Virus record (IMG/VR): IMGVR_UViG_3300007734_000749
Location: 1-64,000 of that record
Length of the DNA: 64,000 bases
DNA from: a virus
Direction: 5' to 3' (one strand)
Shown in pieces: positions 36,571-64,000 of the stretch; the stretch's first letter is position 1, and each line of letters starts with the position of its first letter. A model generated the notes under the pieces. It made no database searches and was not told the origin of the DNA. It was given only the letters and a program-made list of their open reading frames with translations. The position numbers were made by a program, and so were the translations under genes.

Positions 36571-37026
36571 ATGAATAATTGGTTTTGGTATGAAAACATG
36601 GGAATTAAAGAATTCAAATCAATAGAAGACTTCCCAGAAAATAGTTTTGGCTTTATATATAAAATTACTAATATAATAACAGGTAAATTTTATATTGGAA
36701 AAAAAAGTCTTTATCATAATATAAAGAAAAAATTAACTAAAGCTGAATTAGCCGAACAAACTGGTCCTGGCCGTAAATCTACCACTAAAACTATCCAAAA
36801 AGAATCAGATTGGTTAACATACTGGGGTTCTAATAAAGAATTATTAAATGATATTAAAACATCTAGTAATTTATCATTCCAAAGAGAAATCATTAAAATA
36901 GCAAAAACTAAAAAAGAATTAACATATTGGGAAGTAAATTACCAATGTTCATATGATGTTTTATTAGTTAATAGTTACAATGATAATATATTAGGAAAGT
37001 TTTTTAGGAAAGACTTGGAAAACTAA
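36571..37026 (+). CDS. GIY-YIG endonuclease domain protein
   Basis: The 151-residue product has GFIYKITN (27-34) and GKFYIGKKS (38-46), the GIY...YIG pair of this nuclease family, then SDWLTYWGSNKEL and a C-terminal helix with ELTYWE. Free-standing GIY-YIG proteins in T4-like phages are often homing-type endonucleases. No intron or interrupted gene is evident next to it, so it could also be a DNA-degradation or repair enzyme. Confidence 0.75.
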   Translation: MNNWFWYENMGIKEFKSIEDFPENSFGFIYKITNIITGKFYIGKKSLYHNIKKKLTKAELAEQTGPGRKSTTKTIQKESDWLTYWGSNKELLNDIKTSSNLSFQREIIKIAKTKKELTYWEVNYQCSYDVLLVNSYNDNILGKFFRKDLEN

Positions 37027-38782: not shown

Positions 38783-39745
38783 ATGATATCATTGGTTAGT
38801 ATTTTTAAGGAAACACTCCTTGAAGGAGGTAACGTATTTGGCACTACTTCTTCTATTAAAAAAGAATACATCCAGCCTACTTTAGATAAATTTATTAAAG
38901 AATTAAAACGTCTTTATCCTAAAATAAATTTTGATTTTGAAACTTTAGGATCAGTAGGTAAAAAAGATGAATCTGGAGATATAGATTTAGGATTTAGTAT
39001 TAATAATTTTATTACTACTCAAGGTGAACCTAAACTCTTAGAATGGGGAATTGACTCTAAAGAATTTCAATCTACTTATGAAGCAATACGAAAAAAAGCT
39101 CGTACTGCTTCTGAATTACAAAGTACTATAAGAGCTGTACTTCAATTAGTAGCAGTTAATATAGAAAATAAATCTCAACTTATTACTACTGATTCTAAAG
39201 CTGCAGGTAGTGGATCTATATTTTGTACTTTCCCCCAATATGATAAAAGTGGAAAACAAGTAGAAGATAAAACTGTTCAAATTGATATTAATGTTGGAAG
39301 TATAGATTGGCTTAAGTTTAGTTATTATTCTAATACTTACAAAGATAATGTTAAAGGTCTTCATAGAACACAATTAATGGTAGCTTTATTTCAAGCAGCA
39401 GGAATGACTTTTAGTCATGGTGCTGGAGTTAAAATGAAAGATACTGGAGAAACTGTAGCTACAAATCCACAAGAAGCTATTGAAGCTCTAAACAAAGCAT
39501 ACAATATTAACATTACCTCAGATGTTTTAAATGATTATTTTGAATTAATATCTTATCTTAAACAAAATCTTCATAGAGAAAAATATAATAAAATTTTAGA
39601 TATATATTTAAAAATTCTTGACTCTACTAGAGCAGACATACCTACTAATATCCAAAAATACTGGATAGAAAACCAAGATAGACTTGGCCTTAAAGGTAAA
39701 TTCCTACCAGATGATTCTAGTTTAACTAAATATAAAAAAGTATAA
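38783..39745 (+). CDS. Nucleotidyltransferase-fold protein
   Basis: The 320-residue product has LGSVGKKDESGDIDLG (residues 55-70), the GS...DxD motif of the polymerase-beta-type nucleotidyltransferase superfamily. A later strand (QIDINVGSIDW) could give the third acidic residue. It starts MISLVSIFKETLLEGG, ending L-L-E, like suspected packaged proteins. Its last base is the first base of the giant multidomain gene (TAATGT), which itself has two more such domains. The target (RNA, protein or nucleotide) is unknown. Confidence 0.75.
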   Translation: MISLVSIFKETLLEGGNVFGTTSSIKKEYIQPTLDKFIKELKRLYPKINFDFETLGSVGKKDESGDIDLGFSINNFITTQGEPKLLEWGIDSKEFQSTYEAIRKKARTASELQSTIRAVLQLVAVNIENKSQLITTDSKAAGSGSIFCTFPQYDKSGKQVEDKTVQIDINVGSIDWLKFSYYSNTYKDNVKGLHRTQLMVALFQAAGMTFSHGAGVKMKDTGETVATNPQEAIEALNKAYNINITSDVLNDYFELISYLKQNLHREKYNKILDIYLKILDSTRADIPTNIQKYWIENQDRLGLKGKFLPDDSSLTKYKKV

Positions 39746-42700
39746 TGTCAGGTTCAGCAGGAGGAAATAGAATTCCTAGAGAAGCAGTACAAGCTACTGT
39801 AAATGATTATATAGATAAAGTTTTATCTAAATATCCTGGCTTTAAATCTGCTAAAATTACTGGTTCCTATAATACCAGTAAAAAATCAGATTTTGGAGAT
39901 ATTGATTTAATTGTTCAAATTGACGGTGAAGACAAAAAACTAATTAAACAAGACCTAGCCAAATTCTTTACCTCATTCCCAGATTCTATAATAGTACCAT
40001 TTAAAAGTGAAAAATACAGTGGTAAAAAATTTATGAATACTGGAGAATTAGTAACTATACTTTATCCAATAATAGGATTTGAAGACCAATACGCTCAAAT
40101 AGATAATATTATATCGGTAAGTGAAGAAGAATCTGTTTTTAAAAATTCTTTTCTTGATTATCCTGCTGAAATACAAGGTTTACTTTTAGGCCTAGCTAAA
40201 GTAATATGCCTTGAAGAAAACCCAAAAGATATATTTAAGCGATTAGGCATTACCAATGTCCCTGAATTAGAAGAAAATCAAGAATACGAGTTTAATCTCT
40301 CCAGTTCAGGTTTAACATTACGTATAGTTACTTTAGATAACTTTAAAGAAACAGACCGCACTGAGGTTTGGAAAACCTCTAATTGGGGTAAAATTAAACT
40401 CCTTTTTCAAAACTACAATATTGATTCTGATTTCCCTACCCTCCTTTCAGATTTATCTAAAAAACTAACAAATTCTAGATCTAAAACTAGAGTAAAAGGT
40501 ATATTTAAATCTATGGTATCTATTAAAAGTGGAGAAGTAGGTACTGCTAAAGGAGATAATAAAGCTAAAGCAATACAAAGTGTAGATTCATTATTAGAAA
40601 ATAAACTTTGCAAAGGATTAGTTGAATCTCTTATTACCCCTTTTCTTATTGAAGATCAAGAAACAACAGGTAAAACTTTAATAAAATTTTCCCCTGATGA
40701 AACCGTAGCCCTCTACCCAGGCAAATTCAAACCACCACATAAAGGACATTTAGATGTAGTTAATCAACTTACTCAAATAGCTGATAAAGTGTATGTTATA
40801 ATTTCTCCTAAAACACATGAAGGAATAACATCTAATCAAAGTTTAGCCATTTGGGAAAATTTATATGCTCCTTTAATTCTAGATAAAAGTAAAGTTACTT
40901 TCTTAATAGCCAGAATTTCCCCTATAGGAGATACATATGATATAATTGAAGCTAACCCTGAAACTAATTTTATAGCAGCATACGGAAAGGATGAAGTAGG
41001 TAGATATCAAAGTAAATTTAAATCTGATAAAGTAAATATATATAATGCTGGAGAAATAGAGGGAGTAAATTCAACTAAACTTCGTCAAGCTTTATTTTCT
41101 CAAGGAGATATAACTCCTTATATCCCTGAAGAAGTATCTTCTGTAAAATATTTAGAAACTTTAGGATTATTATTACATGAAAACATAGAAGAATATAAAA
41201 ACAAAACATCCCTTAATCCTTCTGTATTCTCAGATCTAGAAATAAAACCTAAAGTAAAAGATGCATTATTAAAAATAGCTAATCGTTTTTGGGATTCCCT
41301 TGATTTAGACATTAAATATGAAGACATACTTCTTCTAGGTAGCTCAGCTAATTACAATTGGACTCCATACTCAGATATTGATTTACACATTTTAGTAGAT
41401 TTTGACCAATTTGAAGACCCTGAAATAGCTAAAAAATATTTTGACTCAGCAAAATCTAGATTTAATGATGCTCATGATTTAAAAATAAAGAAAAACGATA
41501 TTGAAGTATATATTCAAAATTCTAAAGAACCTAATGCTAGTGTAGGTGTTTATTCTTTATTAAATAATAAATGGCTTCAAGAACCAACATATGAAAAAAT
41601 AGAAATTCCTGATAAAGATATAGAAAATAAGGCTAAACCTTATAAACAACAGATAGATAAGATTATCAATACTAAACCTACTCCTAAAAATTATGATTCT
41701 TTAGTAGATAAAATAGATAAACTTCAAGAAAAAATTAAAAAGTTTAGACAAACAGGTTTACAAGATGAAGGAGAATATTCTATAGAAAATTTAGCATTTA
41801 AAAATCTTAGAAATACAAAATATATAGAAAAACTTTTTAACTTTAAAAATGAGATAACTGATAAAATTTTATCAATAAACGAAATTTTCAATCAACCCGT
41901 AGATTCATATTCATTTTCTTCCGAAAACGGAGAACAATACTCTTTCACTACAGAAAATAACGAAATATACACTGTAGAAATTTTACCTGCTTCTGAAAAT
42001 AGGATTTTTATAGATTTTGGTGTTCAAATCCCTGATGATATTGATTATAGTACTACCAATAAAGGAGATTTATATAAAGTAATGTCTACTATTATTGCAA
42101 TTACTAAAGATTATATAGATAGACATCCTGAAGTAGAAATTATATCGTGGCAATCTATAGGAAAAACAGGAGAAACTAAAATAGGAGATACACAAAGAGA
42201 TAAACTTTATAAACTTATTCTTAAAAGACAAGGTGGTCTTAAAGATGATGACATTGTATTTAAAAATGGAGAATGGTGGGCATACTTAAAAGGTTACGAT
42301 ACTGTATTTGAAGGATATGCTGTTCGTTATACTGATGCTCCATTAGAAACCTTTACTTATAAAGATCTTCTAGCAGTAGGTTCTCACGCAACCTCACAAC
42401 TCTCCCCAGCTAACCTTGTTTTTTCAAACCATTTTTTAGATCGTGTTAAGGAAAGAGGAATCACCAAACAAGAACTTATTGATTTCTTTACTCACTTAAA
42501 CCAAAACCCAGAAGCAAAGAAAAAATTATTTTCTAAATTACAAAATTATGATGATGAATTATTAGCTACTGATTCTAAAACTAGTATAAATATACCATTA
42601 GCTAAAAAAGGAGGTAAAGATATTAAAGCTATTACTGTTATGAGAAAAAAAGGGTTTAGGCCTAATAATCCTAATGACCCTCACATTGTATTTGAAGATA

Positions 42701-43542
42701 AAAAAGATTTCTTTGGTTTAAATGAATACGCTAGAGAATTAGCTACTGACTTAACAGAAGCAGACCCTAAAACAGGTACTGGTAAAAAACCAAAAGGATC
42801 AGGTCGTCGTTTGTATACTGATGAAAATCCTAAAGACACTGTATCTATTAAATTTAAAACTAAAGAAGACATAGCTGCTACTTTAAATAAAGCATCATTT
42901 AAGTCAAAATCTCATGCTCGTCAATCTCAAATTATTAATTTAATACACCAACGAGTTAGAGCAGCATATCAAAATGCTAAAGATCCTGAAGTTAAAAAAC
43001 GTTTAAAACGTGCTTTAGAATATATTACTAAACGTAAAGAAACTTCTAAAAAGAAAACTAAGCGTTTACAAAAATTAACTGAAGCAAATAATATAAAAAC
43101 TTCTAAGGCCCAATACGCTGTTAAAATATTAGTGTTAGATTCTATGGATAAATTTGGAACTCAAGACTATTTACCATATATTAAGATGTTAACTCAATAT
43201 ATGATAGATAATGGATTAAATATTAATCCTTTACCTAAATTAATTTTTATTGATAATGATGTAGAAAACGCTAATAATATATTAGGTCGTACTGCCCATT
43301 ATGATCCTAATAATAAATGTATTACTTTGTTTACATATGGGCGACATCCAAAAGATGTATTACGTTCATATGCTCATGAAATGATTCATCATTTACAAAA
43401 TTTAGAAAATAGAATAGTAAATGTTAAAACTTTTAATATCAATGAAGATGATTATTTAAAAGAATTAGAACGTGAAGCATATGAAAAAGGAAATCTCATG
43501 TTTAGAGGATGGGAAAATAATTTAAAATCACAAAATGATTAA
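39745..43542 (+). CDS. 1265-residue multidomain protein: two nucleotidyltransferases, adenylyl/cytidylyltransferase, zincin
   Basis: Domains in order: (1) about 30-130, nucleotidyltransferase fold, ITGSYNTSKKSDFGDIDL; (2) about 318-470, NMNAT/cytidylyltransferase fold with PGKFKPPHKGH and a C-terminal NSTKLRQAL (ISSTxxR type); (3) about 520-620, second nucleotidyltransferase, LLGSSANYNWTPYSDIDLH with DIEVY as third acidic strand; (4) about 720-990, two uncharacterised phage modules, including FSNHFLDRVKERGITK; (5) about 1015-1110, a basic helical module (SGRRLYTDENPKD); (6) about 1130-1265, zincin with HEMIHH near 1210 and EREAYEKG. L-T-E or L-I-E sites lie at domain borders near 301, 1003 and 1111. 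Function unknown. Confidence 0.8.
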   Translation: MSGSAGGNRIPREAVQATVNDYIDKVLSKYPGFKSAKITGSYNTSKKSDFGDIDLIVQIDGEDKKLIKQDLAKFFTSFPDSIIVPFKSEKYSGKKFMNTGELVTILYPIIGFEDQYAQIDNIISVSEEESVFKNSFLDYPAEIQGLLLGLAKVICLEENPKDIFKRLGITNVPELEENQEYEFNLSSSGLTLRIVTLDNFKETDRTEVWKTSNWGKIKLLFQNYNIDSDFPTLLSDLSKKLTNSRSKTRVKGIFKSMVSIKSGEVGTAKGDNKAKAIQSVDSLLENKLCKGLVESLITPFLIEDQETTGKTLIKFSPDETVALYPGKFKPPHKGHLDVVNQLTQIADKVYVIISPKTHEGITSNQSLAIWENLYAPLILDKSKVTFLIARISPIGDTYDIIEANPETNFIAAYGKDEVGRYQSKFKSDKVNIYNAGEIEGVNSTKLRQALFSQGDITPYIPEEVSSVKYLETLGLLLHENIEEYKNKTSLNPSVFSDLEIKPKVKDALLKIANRFWDSLDLDIKYEDILLLGSSANYNWTPYSDIDLHILVDFDQFEDPEIAKKYFDSAKSRFNDAHDLKIKKNDIEVYIQNSKEPNASVGVYSLLNNKWLQEPTYEKIEIPDKDIENKAKPYKQQIDKIINTKPTPKNYDSLVDKIDKLQEKIKKFRQTGLQDEGEYSIENLAFKNLRNTKYIEKLFNFKNEITDKILSINEIFNQPVDSYSFSSENGEQYSFTTENNEIYTVEILPASENRIFIDFGVQIPDDIDYSTTNKGDLYKVMSTIIAITKDYIDRHPEVEIISWQSIGKTGETKIGDTQRDKLYKLILKRQGGLKDDDIVFKNGEWWAYLKGYDTVFEGYAVRYTDAPLETFTYKDLLAVGSHATSQLSPANLVFSNHFLDRVKERGITKQELIDFFTHLNQNPEAKKKLFSKLQNYDDELLATDSKTSINIPLAKKGGKDIKAITVMRKKGFRPNNPNDPHIVFEDKKDFFGLNEYARELATDLTEADPKTGTGKKPKGSGRRLYTDENPKDTVSIKFKTKEDIAATLNKASFKSKSHARQSQIINLIHQRVRAAYQNAKDPEVKKRLKRALEYITKRKETSKKKTKRLQKLTEANNIKTSKAQYAVKILVLDSMDKFGTQDYLPYIKMLTQYMIDNGLNINPLPKLIFIDNDVENANNILGRTAHYDPNNKCITLFTYGRHPKDVLRSYAHEMIHHLQNLENRIVNVKTFNINEDDYLKELEREAYEKGNLMFRGWENNLKSQND

Positions 43543-44071
43543 ATTAGTTGAACTATATAAAAATAATCTTACCCCAAATTATATTATATATTGTGATATG
43601 GATGGGGTAATTTGTGATTTTGATGCCCGTTTTGATTACTTTACAGGAATGTCTCCTAAAGAATATGAAGAAAAATTTGGAATTAAAAAATTCTGGAACT
43701 TAATTGATGATCAAATTGGAATAGAATTTTGGTCTAAAATCCCATGGATGCCCGAAGGAAAAATTTTATGGGAATACATCAGAAAATATAATCCTATCCT
43801 CCTCTCAGCTCCTTCTCAAAATAATGAATCTAGAATAGGAAAACGAATTTGGGTTGAAACTCATATAAACAAATATCTCCCACCTCCTGCTCCAAAAATT
43901 AAATTAATTTTAGCATCTAGAGAAAACAAACAAAATTATTCTGAAAAAAACTCAATACTTATAGACGACAGAGAAGACACTATTAAGGAATGGAATTCTC
44001 GTGGTGGTATTGGAATATTATTTGAATCAACTGAACAAACTATAAATGATTTAAAAAAATTAGGACTATAA
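43535..44071 (+). CDS. HAD-superfamily 5'(3')-deoxyribonucleotidase-like phosphatase
   Basis: The 178-residue product has YCDMDGVICDFD (residues 19-30), the DxDGV HAD motif I. Later come ILLSAPS (motif II) and ILIDDREDTIKEWNSRGG (motif IV), as in the NT5C-type nucleotidases of phages. It would dephosphorylate nucleoside monophosphates. It overlaps the multidomain gene by 8 bases. The start MIKLVELYKNN resembles other N-termini here but lacks the (I/L)-x-E end. Confidence 0.8.
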   Translation: MIKLVELYKNNLTPNYIIYCDMDGVICDFDARFDYFTGMSPKEYEEKFGIKKFWNLIDDQIGIEFWSKIPWMPEGKILWEYIRKYNPILLSAPSQNNESRIGKRIWVETHINKYLPPPAPKIKLILASRENKQNYSEKNSILIDDREDTIKEWNSRGGIGILFESTEQTINDLKKLGL

Positions 44072-46716: not shown

Positions 46717-47868
46717 ATGGAAAATAATTCTTCTAATAATCTTATTTCTCGCATGCAAAAACTTGCAGGAATAATTACTGAAAACTCATATCTTCAAGAC
46801 CCTAATCCTATATCTAACATTCAACAGATGAACCCTCAACAAAAACAGGATAAAGATATTGAATGGGCTAATATGGATTACGAAGAAAAAACTAATCTTC
46901 TCCTCCAATATGTCCCAGACCCGGATAAAGCTGCATTATATGCTGATTATGCCTGGGACAACTTACCAGATTTTCTTATAGCAAGTTTAGGAAATGTTGA
47001 TTTAACTCCACAAGGTAGTCTTGAACCAATCAATGAAGAATTAGATGAAATTTTAGCTTTACTAGAAAAAGCTGAAAAAAAAGATAAAGAAGAAGAAACT
47101 TCTGAAGAAGAAACCCCTGAAGAAACACCTGCAGAAGAAGAAACCCCTGAAGAAACCCCAGCAGAAGAAACACCCGAGGGTGAAGGAAGTGGAGATGTAA
47201 AACAAGTACAAAATGCTTTAGAACAAGCATATAATAGTGCTAAAGGATTAAATGATGAAAAACTCACAAATCAAATAGCTAATACTATTACTTATTTTAC
47301 TAAAACTCAAATTCTTAAACAAACCGAAAAAGAAGAAGAAATTACTGAAGATATATTTTCATCCTTAGTAAAAGAAATCGCCCCCAAACCAGACCCAAAA
47401 CAAGATAAAGTTGGAGGAAATACAAGTGCTCTAGTTACTGCATTAAAAGGTCTTGATGTCCCTGGATTAAACTCCCAATTATTAGGATCATCCCTTACTA
47501 AAATCAAACAGGGTGTTCCTGGAGATAAACTCAGCACTGGTGAATTAAAAGAAATCTCTAAAGTATTTGCCCAAATGATTCGAACAGGAAATGATAGTGC
47601 AATTAATAAAATTGCAGCAGCATTAAGAAGTATTGAATCTAAAGCAGGTAAAGAAGCATCAGCTCCAAATAAAAAAGAATTAAAAGAACAATTAATTCGT
47701 AAAATTGAAAGACTTCTTATAGAAAAACTTTCAAAAAAAGAAATGAGTGAAAAAGAAAAAATCGTAAAAGCTCTTAAATCTAATAAAAAAGATTTTGTAA
47801 AGAGATATGGTAAAGATGCTCAAAACGTAATGTATGCTACTGCTACTAAAATGGCTAAAAACAAATAA
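46717..47868 (+). CDS. Tagged internal head protein candidate with Glu-Thr-Pro repeats
   Basis: The 383-residue product carries the tag SRMQKLAGIITEN at residues 11-23. It has a hydrophilic Glu/Thr/Pro repeat linker at about 126-155 (EETPEETPAEE), a helical domain, and a basic C-terminus ending DAQNVMYATATKMAKNK, a module common in such phages. The linker repeats recur at the end of the next protein. I infer a packaged protein cleaved at IITE. Confidence 0.75.
   Translation: MENNSSNNLISRMQKLAGIITENSYLQDPNPISNIQQMNPQQKQDKDIEWANMDYEEKTNLLLQYVPDPDKAALYADYAWDNLPDFLIASLGNVDLTPQGSLEPINEELDEILALLEKAEKKDKEEETSEEETPEETPAEEETPEETPAEETPEGEGSGDVKQVQNALEQAYNSAKGLNDEKLTNQIANTITYFTKTQILKQTEKEEEITEDIFSSLVKEIAPKPDPKQDKVGGNTSALVTALKGLDVPGLNSQLLGSSLTKIKQGVPGDKLSTGELKEISKVFAQMIRTGNDSAINKIAAALRSIESKAGKEASAPNKKELKEQLIRKIERLLIEKLSKKEMSEKEKIVKALKSNKKDFVKRYGKDAQNVMYATATKMAKNK
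47092..47181 (+). repeat. Coding repeats for Glu-Glu-Thr-Pro units, copy A
   Basis: Tandem imperfect 12-15 base units of the GAAGAAACCCCTGAAGAAAC type encode EETPEETPAEE. Related units lie at 48270-48380. Confidence 0.7.
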
Positions 47869-52071: not shown

Positions 52072-52318
52072 AGATATAGAAGTAACATATACTTATATTA
52101 TTCGTGAATTTGACGAAAATATAGATCCTATTGAACTAAAATGGCATCGTGATAAAGAAGACCGTTTAGTAGAAATTATAGGAGAAACAAATTGGCAAAT
52201 ACAACTTGAAAACCAATTACCAACTTCTATAAATTATCAAATATTTATACCAAAATACGAGTGGCATCGTATTATTAAAGGAACAGGAACACTAAAATTA
52301 AAAATACACAAATCATGA
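52058..52318 (+). CDS. Hypothetical 86-residue beta-rich protein
   Basis: The start at 52058 (MKPYKDIEVTYTYIIREFDE) is chosen over an in-frame ATG at 51992 because it removes a 66-base overlap with the preceding gene. The WHRDKEDR and later WHRIIKGTG segments form a recognisable phage-specific beta protein of unknown function. Overlaps both neighbours by a few bases. Confidence 0.65.
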   Translation: MKPYKDIEVTYTYIIREFDENIDPIELKWHRDKEDRLVEIIGETNWQIQLENQLPTSINYQIFIPKYEWHRIIKGTGTLKLKIHKS

Positions 52319-52716
52319 AAAAATCAGATTTAAAAAATATCATTCAAGAAGAAATTGAAAATATGTTAAATGAAAATATTACTCCTATAAGTGATTTAGG
52401 TGATGTAGTTCCTTTTCTTAATGCTAATAAGGAAAAAATTTTTCAAATAGCTGATGAATATAAAGGAGATACTATGTCTATGCAAGCTGCATTAAATAAT
52501 TTTCTAGCCCCATACATTGAAAACACCCCAGAATTTATAGTTACTAGAATGAAAGCAGCTATTGGTAGTGCAATATTAAGAAGAAATGTTGCTGCTAATC
52601 CTAAATCACAAGCAGCATATGATGAATTAAAAAACACATTAAATAAAAGAAATAATCCAATGAATGAATCATTTCTTAAAATGCAAAAATTAGCTGGTAT
52701 TATTACTGAAAATTAA
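52315..52716 (+). CDS. Protein with targeting-like start and a C-terminal MQKLAGIITE tag
   Basis: The 133-residue product starts MKKSDLKNIIQEEIENMLNE (I-Q-E site) and ends exactly with MNESFLKMQKLAGIITEN. The tag is otherwise N-terminal in four proteins here, so this copy is unusual. The tag has its own ATG (52660) and may be the remnant of a truncated gene fused in frame, or a true C-terminal signal. Last gene of its late transcript, before a strong terminator. Confidence 0.7.
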   Translation: MKKSDLKNIIQEEIENMLNENITPISDLGDVVPFLNANKEKIFQIADEYKGDTMSMQAALNNFLAPYIENTPEFIVTRMKAAIGSAILRRNVAANPKSQAAYDELKNTLNKRNNPMNESFLKMQKLAGIITEN

Positions 52717-52842: not shown

Positions 52843-54168
52843 ATGAATAAAAAAATAGTAATTATAGGTGCAGGAGTAGCTGGTATAAATGCAGCTACTA
52901 AATTAGTTGACAATGGTTACCCTGGTAACTTAATCACAATTATAGACAAAGGTAATGACCCTCATAACCGTTTACCTGAAGAAGTAATGACAGGTATGCT
53001 CGGTGCAGGAGGATGGAGTGATGGTAAATTAACTTATCACACTGCAATTGGAGGTGTATTATCAAAATATTGTGGTGAAGAAAAAGCAATGGAATTAATG
53101 GATCAAGTCATTAGCAACTTTAGACGTTTCCATCCTAAACCAGAAGAAATATTTTGCTCTGATCCACAAGCAGAACCTGATTTTATTAAACCATATTTTG
53201 GATTACGTTTATTCCCAGTATGGCATATTGGTTCAAATTATCTACATGAGATTGCTAAAGCATGGTATTCATATTTAGTTGATAATGGTGTTAGTTTTAT
53301 GTGGAATACCGAAATCACTAATCTAAATTTATCTAATAATTGGGTTAATTATATAGATAGTCTTAACGAAAAAGAAGCTATTACCTATGATACCCTAATA
53401 TTTGCAGTAGGTAAATCAGGTATTGATTTTGCCCAAAAAACATCTAATCAATATAATCTCCCTACAGAACCTAAATCAGTTCAAATTGGGGTCCGTTTTG
53501 AAGCACCACAAAAATACTTTCAAAAACTAATTGATATTAGTTATGATTTTAAACTATATCAAAAGTTTGATAATGTATCATTACGCTCATTCTGTACTAA
53601 TAATAACGCAGCTTATGTAGCAGTAGAAGAAACATATGGTGATATTAGTTACAACGGTCATGCTAAAAAAGGTGAACAATTCAGAAATGATATGACCAAT
53701 TTTGGTATTTTAATGGAAATTAAAGGCATTGAAAATCCGTTTGAATGGTCAAGAAAAGTAGTAAGTGAATGTAATATAATTGATGGACAAACAGAAGAAA
53801 ACTTAGGTGGTATATATTACTCACCAAATCAAACTAGACAACCATCAAATACTTCAGAAGGAGAAAGAGTCAAATCTCATCAATCTCCTAAACAAATATT
53901 ACCTTTAGTACGAAATGCTTTTGGTGGTTATTTTGAACATATTGAAAACTTTATTGACCAAATGAATAAAGTATTTGAATTTGGTGATGATTGGGGAATG
54001 TATATTCCTGAAGTAAAGTATTTATCTCCTGAACCATTAGTAGACTATAAAAACTTAGCGTTAGTAGACTATCCAAATGTACACTTTGTAGGTGATGCCT
54101 TATCTGCTCGTGGTATTACAGTTAGTGGTGCTCAAGGAATTTATGTAGCTGAAAGTTTAATAAAATAA
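52843..54168 (+). CDS. FAD-dependent oxidoreductase (COG2509-like)
   Basis: The 441-residue product has an N-terminal dinucleotide-binding GAGVAG (residues 9-14) with KIVIIGAGVAGINAATKL, and a C-terminal FAD signature VHFVGDALSARGITVSGAQG. The middle RPEEV-type and GGWSDGKLT segments resemble uncharacterised FAD-dependent dehydrogenases of the COG2509 type. Such enzymes are rare in phages. It leads a three-gene cassette behind a host-type promoter. The substrate is unknown. Confidence 0.8.
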   Translation: MNKKIVIIGAGVAGINAATKLVDNGYPGNLITIIDKGNDPHNRLPEEVMTGMLGAGGWSDGKLTYHTAIGGVLSKYCGEEKAMELMDQVISNFRRFHPKPEEIFCSDPQAEPDFIKPYFGLRLFPVWHIGSNYLHEIAKAWYSYLVDNGVSFMWNTEITNLNLSNNWVNYIDSLNEKEAITYDTLIFAVGKSGIDFAQKTSNQYNLPTEPKSVQIGVRFEAPQKYFQKLIDISYDFKLYQKFDNVSLRSFCTNNNAAYVAVEETYGDISYNGHAKKGEQFRNDMTNFGILMEIKGIENPFEWSRKVVSECNIIDGQTEENLGGIYYSPNQTRQPSNTSEGERVKSHQSPKQILPLVRNAFGGYFEHIENFIDQMNKVFEFGDDWGMYIPEVKYLSPEPLVDYKNLALVDYPNVHFVGDALSARGITVSGAQGIYVAESLIK

Positions 54169-54425: not shown

Positions 54426-54956
54426 ATGAAAATAGGATTTTGTGGTACAATGAGTGTAGGTAAATCTACACTTGTACATGCTTTAAAAGAATTACCTGAA
54501 TTTAAAGATTATTTCTTTGCTACTGAACGTAGTAAATACTTACGTGATTTAGGTATCCCATTAAACACAGATAGTACATTAAAAGGTCAAACAATATTCT
54601 TAGCTGAGCGTTGTTCTGAATTAATGAGGGAAAATGTTATTACTGATAGAACAATAATTGATGTAATGGCATTTGCTGAATGTGCTCAATCAATTGAGAA
54701 AAATGAAAAACAGTCTTTTATTAATTATGCTTCTCAATTCATTAAAGAATATGATTATATATTTTATATTTCTCCTACTGGGGTAGAAATTGAAGATAAT
54801 GGTGTTAGAGAAACAAATATTGAATATCGTAATTTAATTGATATTTCTATAAAATCTTTAATTAAATCTAATATAGATAGTTTTCAAAACTTTGGTATAA
54901 TTACAGGCACTGTAGAAGAAAGAATTAAACAAGTTAAATTTTATTTAAAGTTTTAA
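54426..54956 (+). CDS. P-loop nucleotide kinase (AAA_28/NadR kinase-like)
   Basis: The 176-residue product begins MKIGFCGTMSVGKSTLVHAL with Walker A GTMSVGKS (7-14). It continues with ATERSKYLRDLG and TDRTIIDVMAFAEC, and a later base-proximal IEYRNLIDISIKSL. This matches the AAA_28 family, whose members include nicotinamide riboside kinase domains and deoxynucleotide kinases. Last gene of the metabolic cassette; its stop overlaps the late-type element of the next gene. Confidence 0.75.
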   Translation: MKIGFCGTMSVGKSTLVHALKELPEFKDYFFATERSKYLRDLGIPLNTDSTLKGQTIFLAERCSELMRENVITDRTIIDVMAFAECAQSIEKNEKQSFINYASQFIKEYDYIFYISPTGVEIEDNGVRETNIEYRNLIDISIKSLIKSNIDSFQNFGIITGTVEERIKQVKFYLKF

Positions 54957-61821: not shown

Positions 61822-62427
61822 ATGAAACAGACTTTAATTGAAACTAATATATTTAGGCCTACTAGTAATTTAGTTATTGGTGAATCCAAGTCTGGTAATG
61901 GAAATGTCTTAGTAGAAGGAATATTAGCTACAGCTGAAGTAAAAAATGGTAATGGTAGATACTATAAAAAAGGACTTTGGAAAAGAGAAATTGATAAGTA
62001 CCAAAAAAGTGTTGAAGAAAATAGAGCTTTAGGTGAACTAGATCATCCTGATTCTTCTGTTATAAATTTAAAAAATGTGTCTCACAATATTAAAAAAATA
62101 TGGTGGGATGGAGATGTAATTAAAGGAGTTATTGAAATTCTTCCTACTCCTTCTGGCAATATTTTAACTTCTCTTCTTAAAAACAACATTACTGTAGGAG
62201 TATCTTCTAGAGGAATGGGATCACTAAAACAAAAAGATGATATCCTAGAAGTACAAGACGATTTTGAACTTCTTTGCTGGGATTTTGTTTCTACTCCTTC
62301 TAACCCAGGATCATATATGCAAGTCATAAGTTTAAACGAAAATAAATCAAACCCTAACCCTTACACTAAGGTTAATTCTATTATTACAGATATATTATGT
62401 GCTAATGGAACTTGCCCTATATTTTAA
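61822..62427 (+). CDS. Prohead core protease (gp21-like)
   Basis: The start at 61822 (MKQTLIETNIFRPTSNLVIG) directly follows the preceding stop; an in-frame ATG at 61747 would overlap that gene. The 201-residue product has the herpes-assemblin-like serine protease order: GRYYKKGLWKRE, ALGELDHPDS with His75, and TVGVSSRGMG with Ser128 or Ser129. T4 gp21 cuts after (I/L)-x-E in scaffold and internal proteins. The many such sites in neighbouring proteins are the expected substrates. Confidence 0.9.
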   Translation: MKQTLIETNIFRPTSNLVIGESKSGNGNVLVEGILATAEVKNGNGRYYKKGLWKREIDKYQKSVEENRALGELDHPDSSVINLKNVSHNIKKIWWDGDVIKGVIEILPTPSGNILTSLLKNNITVGVSSRGMGSLKQKDDILEVQDDFELLCWDFVSTPSNPGSYMQVISLNENKSNPNPYTKVNSIITDILCANGTCPIF

Positions 62428-62431
62428 TACT

Positions 62432-62662
62432 ATGAAAAATCAACCATTATCTGAAGAATTTCGTAAAATGCAAAAAATTGCAGGAATAATTACTGAAATT
62501 GATGACATGCAAAGTCTTTATAATCAACTAGAAAAAGAATACTTTCAAGGAGATAATATAGAAGGTTTAATGACTGATGAAAGATTTAAATCTCTACCTA
62601 GAGAAATGAGAACAAAACTCCATACTGTTATATTCAATAACATGAGACAAAATTACTATTAA
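62432..62662 (+). CDS. Small protein with MQKIAGIITE tag
   Basis: The start at 62432 is chosen over the ATG at 62399, which lies in the protease gene. The 76-residue product starts MKNQPLSEEFRKMQKIAGII and continues TEIDDMQSLYNQLEKEYFQG. The tag ends in I-T-E. It lies 4 bases after the protease gene, so protease and probable substrate are co-expressed. After cleavage about 55 residues would remain. Confidence 0.75.
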   Translation: MKNQPLSEEFRKMQKIAGIITEIDDMQSLYNQLEKEYFQGDNIEGLMTDERFKSLPREMRTKLHTVIFNNMRQNYY

Positions 62663-62851: not shown

Positions 62852-64000
62852 ATGAAATCAAACAGAGATTTACTCAAAGAAGCTATTGCCGATGCAAAAG
62901 CCGTTAAGGAAACTGCTATTGCAAATGCTAAAGCTGCATTAGAAGAAGCATTTACTCCTCAACTTAAATCCATGTTATCTCAACGTCTTGCTGAAATGGA
63001 AGAAGCCGATGATACTGATGAGTATGGCTTTGGAAAAAATAAAGCAGACGGTGATGTTGGATTCGGTTCAATGGGTCAAAAGGCCTTAGATGAAACTGAT
63101 GAAGAAAAAGAAGGCATGTATGAAGCTGATGAGGAAGAAGAAGCTATGAATGAAATTGATCTTGAAGAACTTTTAGCCGAAATGGAAGAAGCTGAAGACG
63201 AAGAAGAAGCCATGATGGAAGCTGACGATAAGGAAGAAGCCATGATGGAAGCTGAAGACGAAGAAGAAGCTATGTATGAAGCTGAAGAGGAAGAAGAAGC
63301 TATGATGGAAGCAGACGACCAAGAAGAGGTTGATCTTGAAGAACTTTTAGCTGAACTTGAAGAAGCTGAAGACGAAGAAGAAGCTATGAATGAAGCTGAA
63401 GGTGAAGAAGAAGAAGAGGAAGAGGAAGAAAAAGAAGAAGCTGAAGGTGATGATGAAGATATCAACATTGAAAGCATGTCTAAAGAAGAATTTAAGTCTT
63501 TTATTGAAGACACTATCAAAGACATGTTCAGCTCTGGTGAACTTTCATCCGATATGATGTCAGGAGGTGAAGAAGAAGAATCTAAACCACTTGATGAATA
63601 TACTCTTGAAGAACTTCTTGCTGAAATGAAAGCTAAAAATGCTAAAGACAAGTCAATGAAAAAAGAAGTTAAAACTAAAAAAGAAAAAGAACCAGTTAAT
63701 GAAATAACAGACACTGCCTTAATGCTTACAGCATTAGGAACAGCACTTGGTATTCCTGCAGCTTCACTAACTATAGCTAAACTTCATGATTTAGCAAAAG
63801 CTGGAAAATTAGGAAAAGCAGGTGAAAAAGTTGCTGCTTTCTTAGAAAAAGCTGGTAAAGCTTCTTCACCTAAAGGTACTGGTGGTGGTACAGGAGGCGT
63901 AGCTGAAGCTAATGATGAAGCTAACCAAACTGAGACTATTCAAGAATTAAGAAAAGAACTTAATGAGGTTAATCTTTTAAACGCAAAACTTCTTTATACA
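62852..64000 (+). CDS. Prohead core scaffold protein (gp22-like), 3' end outside window
   Basis: The frame is open from ATG 62852 to the window end (383 codons). It begins MKSNRDLLKEAIADAKAVKE, TAIANAKAALEEAF, typical of gp22-like scaffolds. About residues 90-205 are an acidic repeat array (units such as EAEDEEEAMMEA). LEELLAE occurs three times, each with an L-A-E site for gp21-type cleavage. A hydrophobic Ala/Gly/Leu segment at about 290-330 (ALMLTALGTALGIPAASLTI) is unusual. Incomplete at the C-terminus. Confidence 0.85.
   Translation, partial: MKSNRDLLKEAIADAKAVKETAIANAKAALEEAFTPQLKSMLSQRLAEMEEADDTDEYGFGKNKADGDVGFGSMGQKALDETDEEKEGMYEADEEEEAMNEIDLEELLAEMEEAEDEEEAMMEADDKEEAMMEAEDEEEAMYEAEEEEEAMMEADDQEEVDLEELLAELEEAEDEEEAMNEAEGEEEEEEEEEKEEAEGDDEDINIESMSKEEFKSFIEDTIKDMFSSGELSSDMMSGGEEEESKPLDEYTLEELLAEMKAKNAKDKSMKKEVKTKKEKEPVNEITDTALMLTALGTALGIPAASLTIAKLHDLAKAGKLGKAGEKVAAFLEKAGKASSPKGTGGGTGGVAEANDEANQTETIQELRKELNEVNLLNAKLLYT
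63090..63470 (+). repeat. Acidic coding repeats within the scaffold gene
   Basis: Repeated GAAGAAGAAGCTATG-type units encode alternating EEEAM and EAEDEEE blocks. The minus strand shows a serine-rich open frame here that is only the shadow of these repeats. Confidence 0.7.

Follow-up and report, generated by a model that had tools for sequence, protein, structure and literature searches.

A gene for a 1265-residue protein that joins several predicted enzyme modules lies in the late region of an uncultured T4-type phage, with tail genes on one side and head genes on the other, and raises the question of why a phage would make many enzymes as one chain. The window analyzed here, the first 64,000 nucleotides of the 66.6 kb IMG/VR record IMGVR_UViG_3300007734_000749, contains T4-type tail and head genes. 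We infer, and consider it likely, that the giant protein is a polyprotein of enzymes which would be packaged in the head, cut apart by the prohead protease and injected.

Modules of the giant protein and adjacent genes

The initial annotation treated positions 38783-43542 as the giant protein and its neighbor. An ORF check found both reading frames open and abutting, so that both are real; the preceding gene (gene A) begins at position 38783, and the giant ORF itself occupies 39745-43542. The features are as follows (labels beginning with L denote loci of viral relatives).

38783..39745 (+), gene A, 320 aa, predicted polymerase-beta-type nucleotidyltransferase with invariant GS56-57, D66, D68 and D168
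38783..38824 (+), leader of gene A, MISLVSIFKETLLE then GG, capsid-targeting-like with an [LI]xE end, shared with L001, L002, L010, L016 and L036
39745..43542 (+), giant modular protein, 1265 aa
39745..40596 (+), module B, residues 1-284, predicted nucleotidyltransferase without N-terminal leader
40597..40698 (+), B-C linker, sites LLE285, LVE294 and LIE303, with LVESLITPFLIE at residues 292-303; low pLDDT at 287-311
40699..41169 (+), module C, residues 319-475, predicted NMNAT/PPAT-type adenylyltransferase with HKGH and STKLR
41170..41241 (+), C-D linker, sites LHE479 and IEE483; low pLDDT at 476-499
41242..41865 (+), module D, residues 500-707, predicted nucleotidyltransferase with D544, D546 and E587
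41866..41895 (+), D-E linker, site INE713; low pLDDT at 705-715
41896..42294 (+), module E, residues 718-850, DUF6934, predicted GNAT acetyltransferase-like fold
42295..42399 (+), E-F linker, site VFE856; low pLDDT at 854-869
42400..42699 (+), module F, residues 886-985, weakly RegB-like (under the Pfam cut-off)
42700..42768 (+), F-G linker, sites LNE994 and LTE1005 (DFFGLNEYARELATDLTE); the spacer recurs in relatives
42769..43059 (+), module G, residues 1009-1105, basic, conserved, of no known family; in L027 and L033 it stands alone as a gene that has a leader
43060..43140 (+), G-H linker, site LTE1113; low pLDDT at 1116-1133
43141..43539 (+), module H, residues 1133-1265, zincin with HEMIHH and a predicted Wss1-like fold
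43535..44071 (+), module I as its own gene, HAD/NT5C-like phosphatase, fused into the chain in several relatives

Catalytic motifs were located in module B (GS40-41, D52-x-D54, D120), module C (HKGH 332-335, STKLR 443-447), module D (SDIDLH 543-548, E587) and module H (HEMIHH 1211-1216). Alignments of each module across relatives showed that G56, S57, D66, D68 and D168 are kept in A, G40, D52, D54 and D120 in B, the DxD and third acid in D, and the HExxH with the following Glu in H, where HExxH is invariant. The giant protein matched the Pfam families NTP_transf_2 (E 1e-5), CTP_transf_like (8e-5) and DUF6934 (8e-5) and the NCBIfam family coaD (1e-9), and gene A had no Pfam match. A, B and D are predicted to be polymerase-beta nucleotidyltransferases from the GS/GG followed by DxD and a third acid found in each alignment, for A from motifs alone.

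AlphaFold models of residues 1-715 and 705-1265 had mean pLDDT of 79.5 and 68.6. The model of C matched PPAT/NMNAT structures (Z 15.5), that of H matched Wss1-type zincins (Z 8.8) and that of E matched GNAT acetyltransferases (Z 8.4), while one of the nucleotidyltransferases matched polymerase lambda/beta chains. With an HxGH, an S-T-x-x-R-type motif and this modeled fold, C is of the NMNAT/PPAT type. In a further set of structure matches C, E and H took up the lists, which were therefore uninformative for B, D, F and G. When A, B, D and H were searched as profiles against proteins of solved structure, no match was significant, and F fell below the Pfam cut-off for RegB (19.3 bits vs 27, in one of 12 members). 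Compared as profiles, A and B aligned over 54 columns only (probability 74%), and are likely homologous judging from their sequences. PADLOC gave weak matches to the PDC-S09 nucleotidyltransferase and nothing else.

Motifs, conserved catalytic residues and family or fold matches all agree with the two nucleotidyltransferase domains, NMNAT-type domain and zincin initially proposed for the 1265-residue product, and the conserved G56, S57, D66, D68 and D168 bear out the third nucleotidyltransferase proposed for the preceding gene. Where two uncharacterized modules had been counted there are three, namely the GNAT-like E, the weakly RegB-like F and G, a basic and highly conserved module of no known family.

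Module exchange and the motif at junctions

Modules were traced by profile searches in 80 viral loci, among which they are shuffled, lost, reordered or free-standing, giving 25 arrangements (some cut by contig ends). The order B-C-D-E-F-G-H was seen in the present phage and L001. Other fused orders were C-F-D-H-I, C-D-F-H-I, C-E-G-H-I, C-G-H-E-I and C-F-H-E-G, shorter fusions were B-C-E-H, B-C-F-H, E-H and G-H, and single-module genes were seen for A, B, D, E, F, G and I. Most fused relatives include H, and L011 carries a HYD1-type ADP-ribosyltransferase module. A further chain, L080:6095-9079, combines NMNAT-like, LETM1-like, HAD, CCA-adding polymerase (E 1.6e-32) and zincin modules, which suggests a tRNA repair cargo. 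A and B are equally frequent (15 each) and A lies directly upstream of B wherever both are visible, which may mean that these nucleotidyltransferases act together in pairs. In the cyanophages S-CRM01, S-B68, S-N03 and S-CREM2, C-like and D-like modules are separate genes close together, in line with the earlier remark that parts of this protein recur in marine T4-like phages.

The motif [L/I/V]-x-E was present in all six linkers of the giant protein and in 18 of 19 junction types overall. Within 25 residues, [LI]xE was found at 58 of 81 distinct internal junctions, compared with 27.9 in composition-preserving shuffles; it occurs in 16% of 25-mers inside modules and in 35 of 38 N-terminal leaders. 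Mosaic breakpoints, which were set by alignment alone, also carried [LI]xE more often than expected (56/169 vs 26.5, z 6.7; 78/170 vs 36.9, z 7.9), and the control motifs [LI]xD, [LI]xK, Ex[LI] and [LI]xxE showed no enrichment. In the giant protein the linker sites coincide with low AlphaFold confidence (p 0.003), a measure blind to the motif. Control proteins from the same contigs had no [LI]xE enrichment at breakpoint ends. At breakpoint starts they were partly enriched (106 vs 85.5; repeated breakpoints 70 vs 42.4), an excess which on inspection owes much to one recurring tail peptide. The motif is short and occurs within folded modules of the giant protein too.

Since modules interchange between relatives and prohead-protease-type motifs separate them, the giant protein is probably a delivery polyprotein as a unit, and not one enzyme. 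The initial reading as one enzyme with multiple active sites does not accord with modules that are shuffled between relatives and junctions that carry such motifs. A single integrated enzyme is likewise disfavored by the shuffling.

We consider it improbable that the chain stays uncut as one large multi-enzyme protein, its motifs being relics of gene fusion or an effect of flexible-linker composition. Fusion would indeed leave leader-like peptides inside the chain, and the linkers are predicted to be disordered, but [LI]xE rises above composition-preserving shuffles where control motifs do not, and relics would be expected to decay rather than persist in 18 of 19 junction types.

Head protease, leader peptides and virion proteins

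The head region of the contig holds the following genes.

55534, terminase, T4-type head region of the window
57121, portal, T4-type head region of the window
61822..62427 (+), gp21-type S77 prohead protease, proposed to cut the chain (Pfam Peptidase_S77, E 2e-26; alignment with T4 gp21)
62852..64000 (+) in the window, continuing to contig position 64252, scaffold-like acidic protein with C-terminus FKKLAGIN
contig 64284-65969, past the window end, major capsid protein

In T4, gp21 has the specificity L/I-X-E, strips capsid-targeting sequences off internal proteins, and cleaves Alt at two sites, ITE-6 and LTE-619 (PMC9026906, PMC5694885). When aligned with T4 gp21, the S77 protease of the window retains the GELDHP and SSRGxGS blocks, and the capsid protein sequence QLVVE/A (a slash marks the cut) aligns with the T4 cut FLTE/A. 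The genome of the giant protein thus encodes both the protease and a matching capsid cut site. Because this capsid site is QLVVE/A, V at P3 is likely acceptable, as in the putative site VFE856.

Free-standing or first modules open with a short hydrophobic peptide that ends in [LI]xE and resembles the T4 capsid-targeting sequences. Examples are MISLVSIFKETLLE/GG (gene A), MIKLTDILNE/ (I), MISLTKILTEILSE/ (G) and MKSLVKSLITPFLSE/ (C), and the N-termini of T4 gp24 (MAKINELLRE/) and Alt (MELITE/) are alike. A leader of about 10-20 residues ending in L/I-x-E is present in gene A and in C-first, G, D and I relatives, and is absent from the N-terminus of the giant protein (MSGSAGGNRIPR). Inside the giant protein, LVESLITPFLIE at the B-C junction is identical at 10 of 12 positions to the N-terminal leader of L022 and scores highest among all of its 12-mers; the next two are also at junctions. 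L057 has a whole SIKLIDILNE/ leader within its chain, upstream of G. Because leader-like peptides sit inside these chains, the genes seem to have been fused together with their own leaders. Leader enrichment in the head region of the window alone was marginal (p 0.053).

These leaders bear on whether a packaged and injected polyprotein might be cut by its own zincin, H, which we regard as unlikely. In its favor, H with its invariant HExxH occurs in most fused relatives, and such processing has been proposed for polyvalent proteins (Iyer et al., 2017, PMC5512222). However, the same sites close the leaders of stand-alone modules without H (A, D, G and I), and they match the capsid cut site, with the P1 Glu of the known gp21 specificity. 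The junction sites and capsid-targeting-like leaders point to the head protease acting in trans, and not to the zincin within the chain or to a C-terminal assemblin-like domain.

A second peptide, [FI]xxMQKLAG[IL][IV]TEN, recurs near the ends of otherwise different window proteins.

Carriers of the MQKLAGIITEN-like peptide: 1769-2149, 2188-2877, 46717-47868, 52315-52716 and 62405-62662

It is similar to the C-termini of the scaffold-like proteins of the present phage (FKKLAGIN) and of Flavobacterium phage immuto (WQKLAGIIK). Because of this resemblance, cargo may imitate the scaffold tail to bind the shell, and the peptide is possibly a second capsid-targeting signal.

Evidence from virions comes from cyanophages; for the present phage and immuto, no virion proteome was found in the literature. 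According to Table 3 of the S-CREM2 report, ORF154 and ORF156 were both detected by mass spectrometry of purified virions (PMC10665884). The former is C-like and the latter is a homolog of D (E 2e-29). In S-CREM2, 9 of the 13 non-structural or unknown proteins that were detected carry [LI]xE at residues 5-20, compared with 18 of 116 undetected genes (p 9e-5), and neither control motifs nor later [LI]xE positions separated detected from undetected proteins. The authors of the S-CREM2 report caution that co-purified proteins are possible (PMC10665884). A citidylyltransferase was likewise detected in S-SM1 virions (PMC3037559). S-CREM2 virion proteins with short leaders are the products of ORFs 6, 12, 13, 14, 15 and 154 (L097 and L096), with leaders such as MKDFDSFLEE, VKRFDAFLTE and MKNFSSFLTE, and they include a SAM hydrolase, a kinase and a Cas9-annotated nuclease.

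That the protein is left unpackaged and serves NAD salvage or tRNA repair inside the infected cell would suit the NMNAT/PPAT-type C, the AAA_28 P-loop protein at 54426-54956 and the one relative with a CCA-adding polymerase, but is very unlikely given the C and D homologs in S-CREM2 virions and citidylyltransferase in S-SM1 virions, the late-region position between tail and head genes, and the leaders.

Proposed delivery, known systems and host

In the packaged polyprotein that we favor, leaders (N-terminal in free-standing modules, internal at B-C here) would draw the chain into the core during prohead assembly, a role modeled on the capsid-targeting sequences of T4 internal proteins. The gp21-type S77 protease would then cut the linkers after [L/I/V]-x-E and free modules B to H, which would be ejected alongside the DNA and would act at an early stage of infection. 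The nucleotidyltransferases, nucleotide adenylyltransferase, GNAT, possible RNase, and CCA-adding polymerase of relatives suggest that the targets are probably host RNA, tRNA or protein. Modification of such molecules is plausible, with relatives carrying a CCA-adding polymerase or an ADP-ribosyltransferase. On a broader proposition we are evenly divided: that T4-like phages of aquatic Bacteroidota fuse genes and capsid-targeting leaders into head-packaged polyproteins. Since the leaders would double as head-protease cut sites, one chain could supply several enzymes in a fixed ratio, and some leaders might bind the shell by mimicking the scaffold C-terminus (KLAGI motif).

The closest known counterparts are the polyvalent proteins found in phages and conjugative elements. 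These large multidomain phage proteins combine zincin, Pol-beta nucleotidyltransferase, GNAT and RNase-like domains whose order varies, and they are predicted to be injected with DNA (Iyer et al., 2017, PMC5512222). Like these, the giant protein has multiple effector-type domains in varying architectures, with seven modules, and typical domains in its zincin, GNAT and nucleotidyltransferases, the RNase-like module being weak. Unlike them, it adds an NMNAT/PPAT-type module and has gp21-type sites, together with capsid-targeting-like leaders, at its junctions. In T4, the internal head proteins and Alt start with a short leader ending in L/I-x-E, as gene A and the free-standing modules do, and are cut by a gp21-type protease; their ejection with DNA has been proposed, and Alt is cut at both ends (PMC9026906, PMC5694885). 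They are, however, single-function and end-trimmed, whereas the giant protein has many modules with leader-like sites between them. The virion cytidylyltransferase and neighbors of S-CREM2 and S-SM1 (PMC10665884, PMC3037559) are homologs of C and D from genes that lie close together, and were detected in virions, but they are separate genes, and the accessible portions of the two papers contain no leader or targeting interpretation. The ejection proteins of phiKZ and SPN3US (PMC5694885) are also packaged in the head and ejected, and a gp21-like protease cuts them after Glu; they differ in being single proteins with long propeptides (A-x-E in SPN3US) and not a modular enzyme string.

What appears new here is the sequence evidence for head-protease processing in trans and for embedded capsid-targeting-like leaders. 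No description of prohead-protease sites between polyvalent-protein modules was found in the literature searched, which mostly did not cover subscription journals and preprints. If the proposal is correct, the phage delivers many enzymes as one packaged chain, released on schedule during head maturation. The leader ending in [LI]xE is a simple sequence rule, and because it picked out non-structural virion proteins of S-CREM2, hidden injected effectors, among them the CCA-adding polymerase and ADP-ribosyltransferase modules of the relatives, could be predicted with it in many uncultured T4-like phages.

Flavobacterium phage immuto is the closest isolated relative found, and its gene order matches: primase, exonuclease, gene A, giant protein, HAD phosphatase and later head genes. 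A scan of bacterial and archaeal genomes returned three contigs only, two in one bacterial MAG and one in a Flavobacteriales MAG. Given immuto as the closest isolated relative and the relative in a Flavobacteriales MAG, the host is likely a member of the Bacteroidota.

Several other genes of the window deserve mention. The AAA_28 family includes the NadR kinase domain, and the AAA_28 P-loop protein at 54426-54956 (E 5e-9) could be linked to the NMNAT-like module. A flavoprotein-type pyridine nucleotide oxidoreductase is encoded at 52843-54168 among the late genes (Pyr_redox_2, E 1e-9), which is unusual for a phage head region. At 36571-37026 lies a SegE-type GIY-YIG endonuclease (E 3e-24), whose counterpart in immuto, at the same place in the gene order, carries the label 'NAD synthetase', probably a misannotation.
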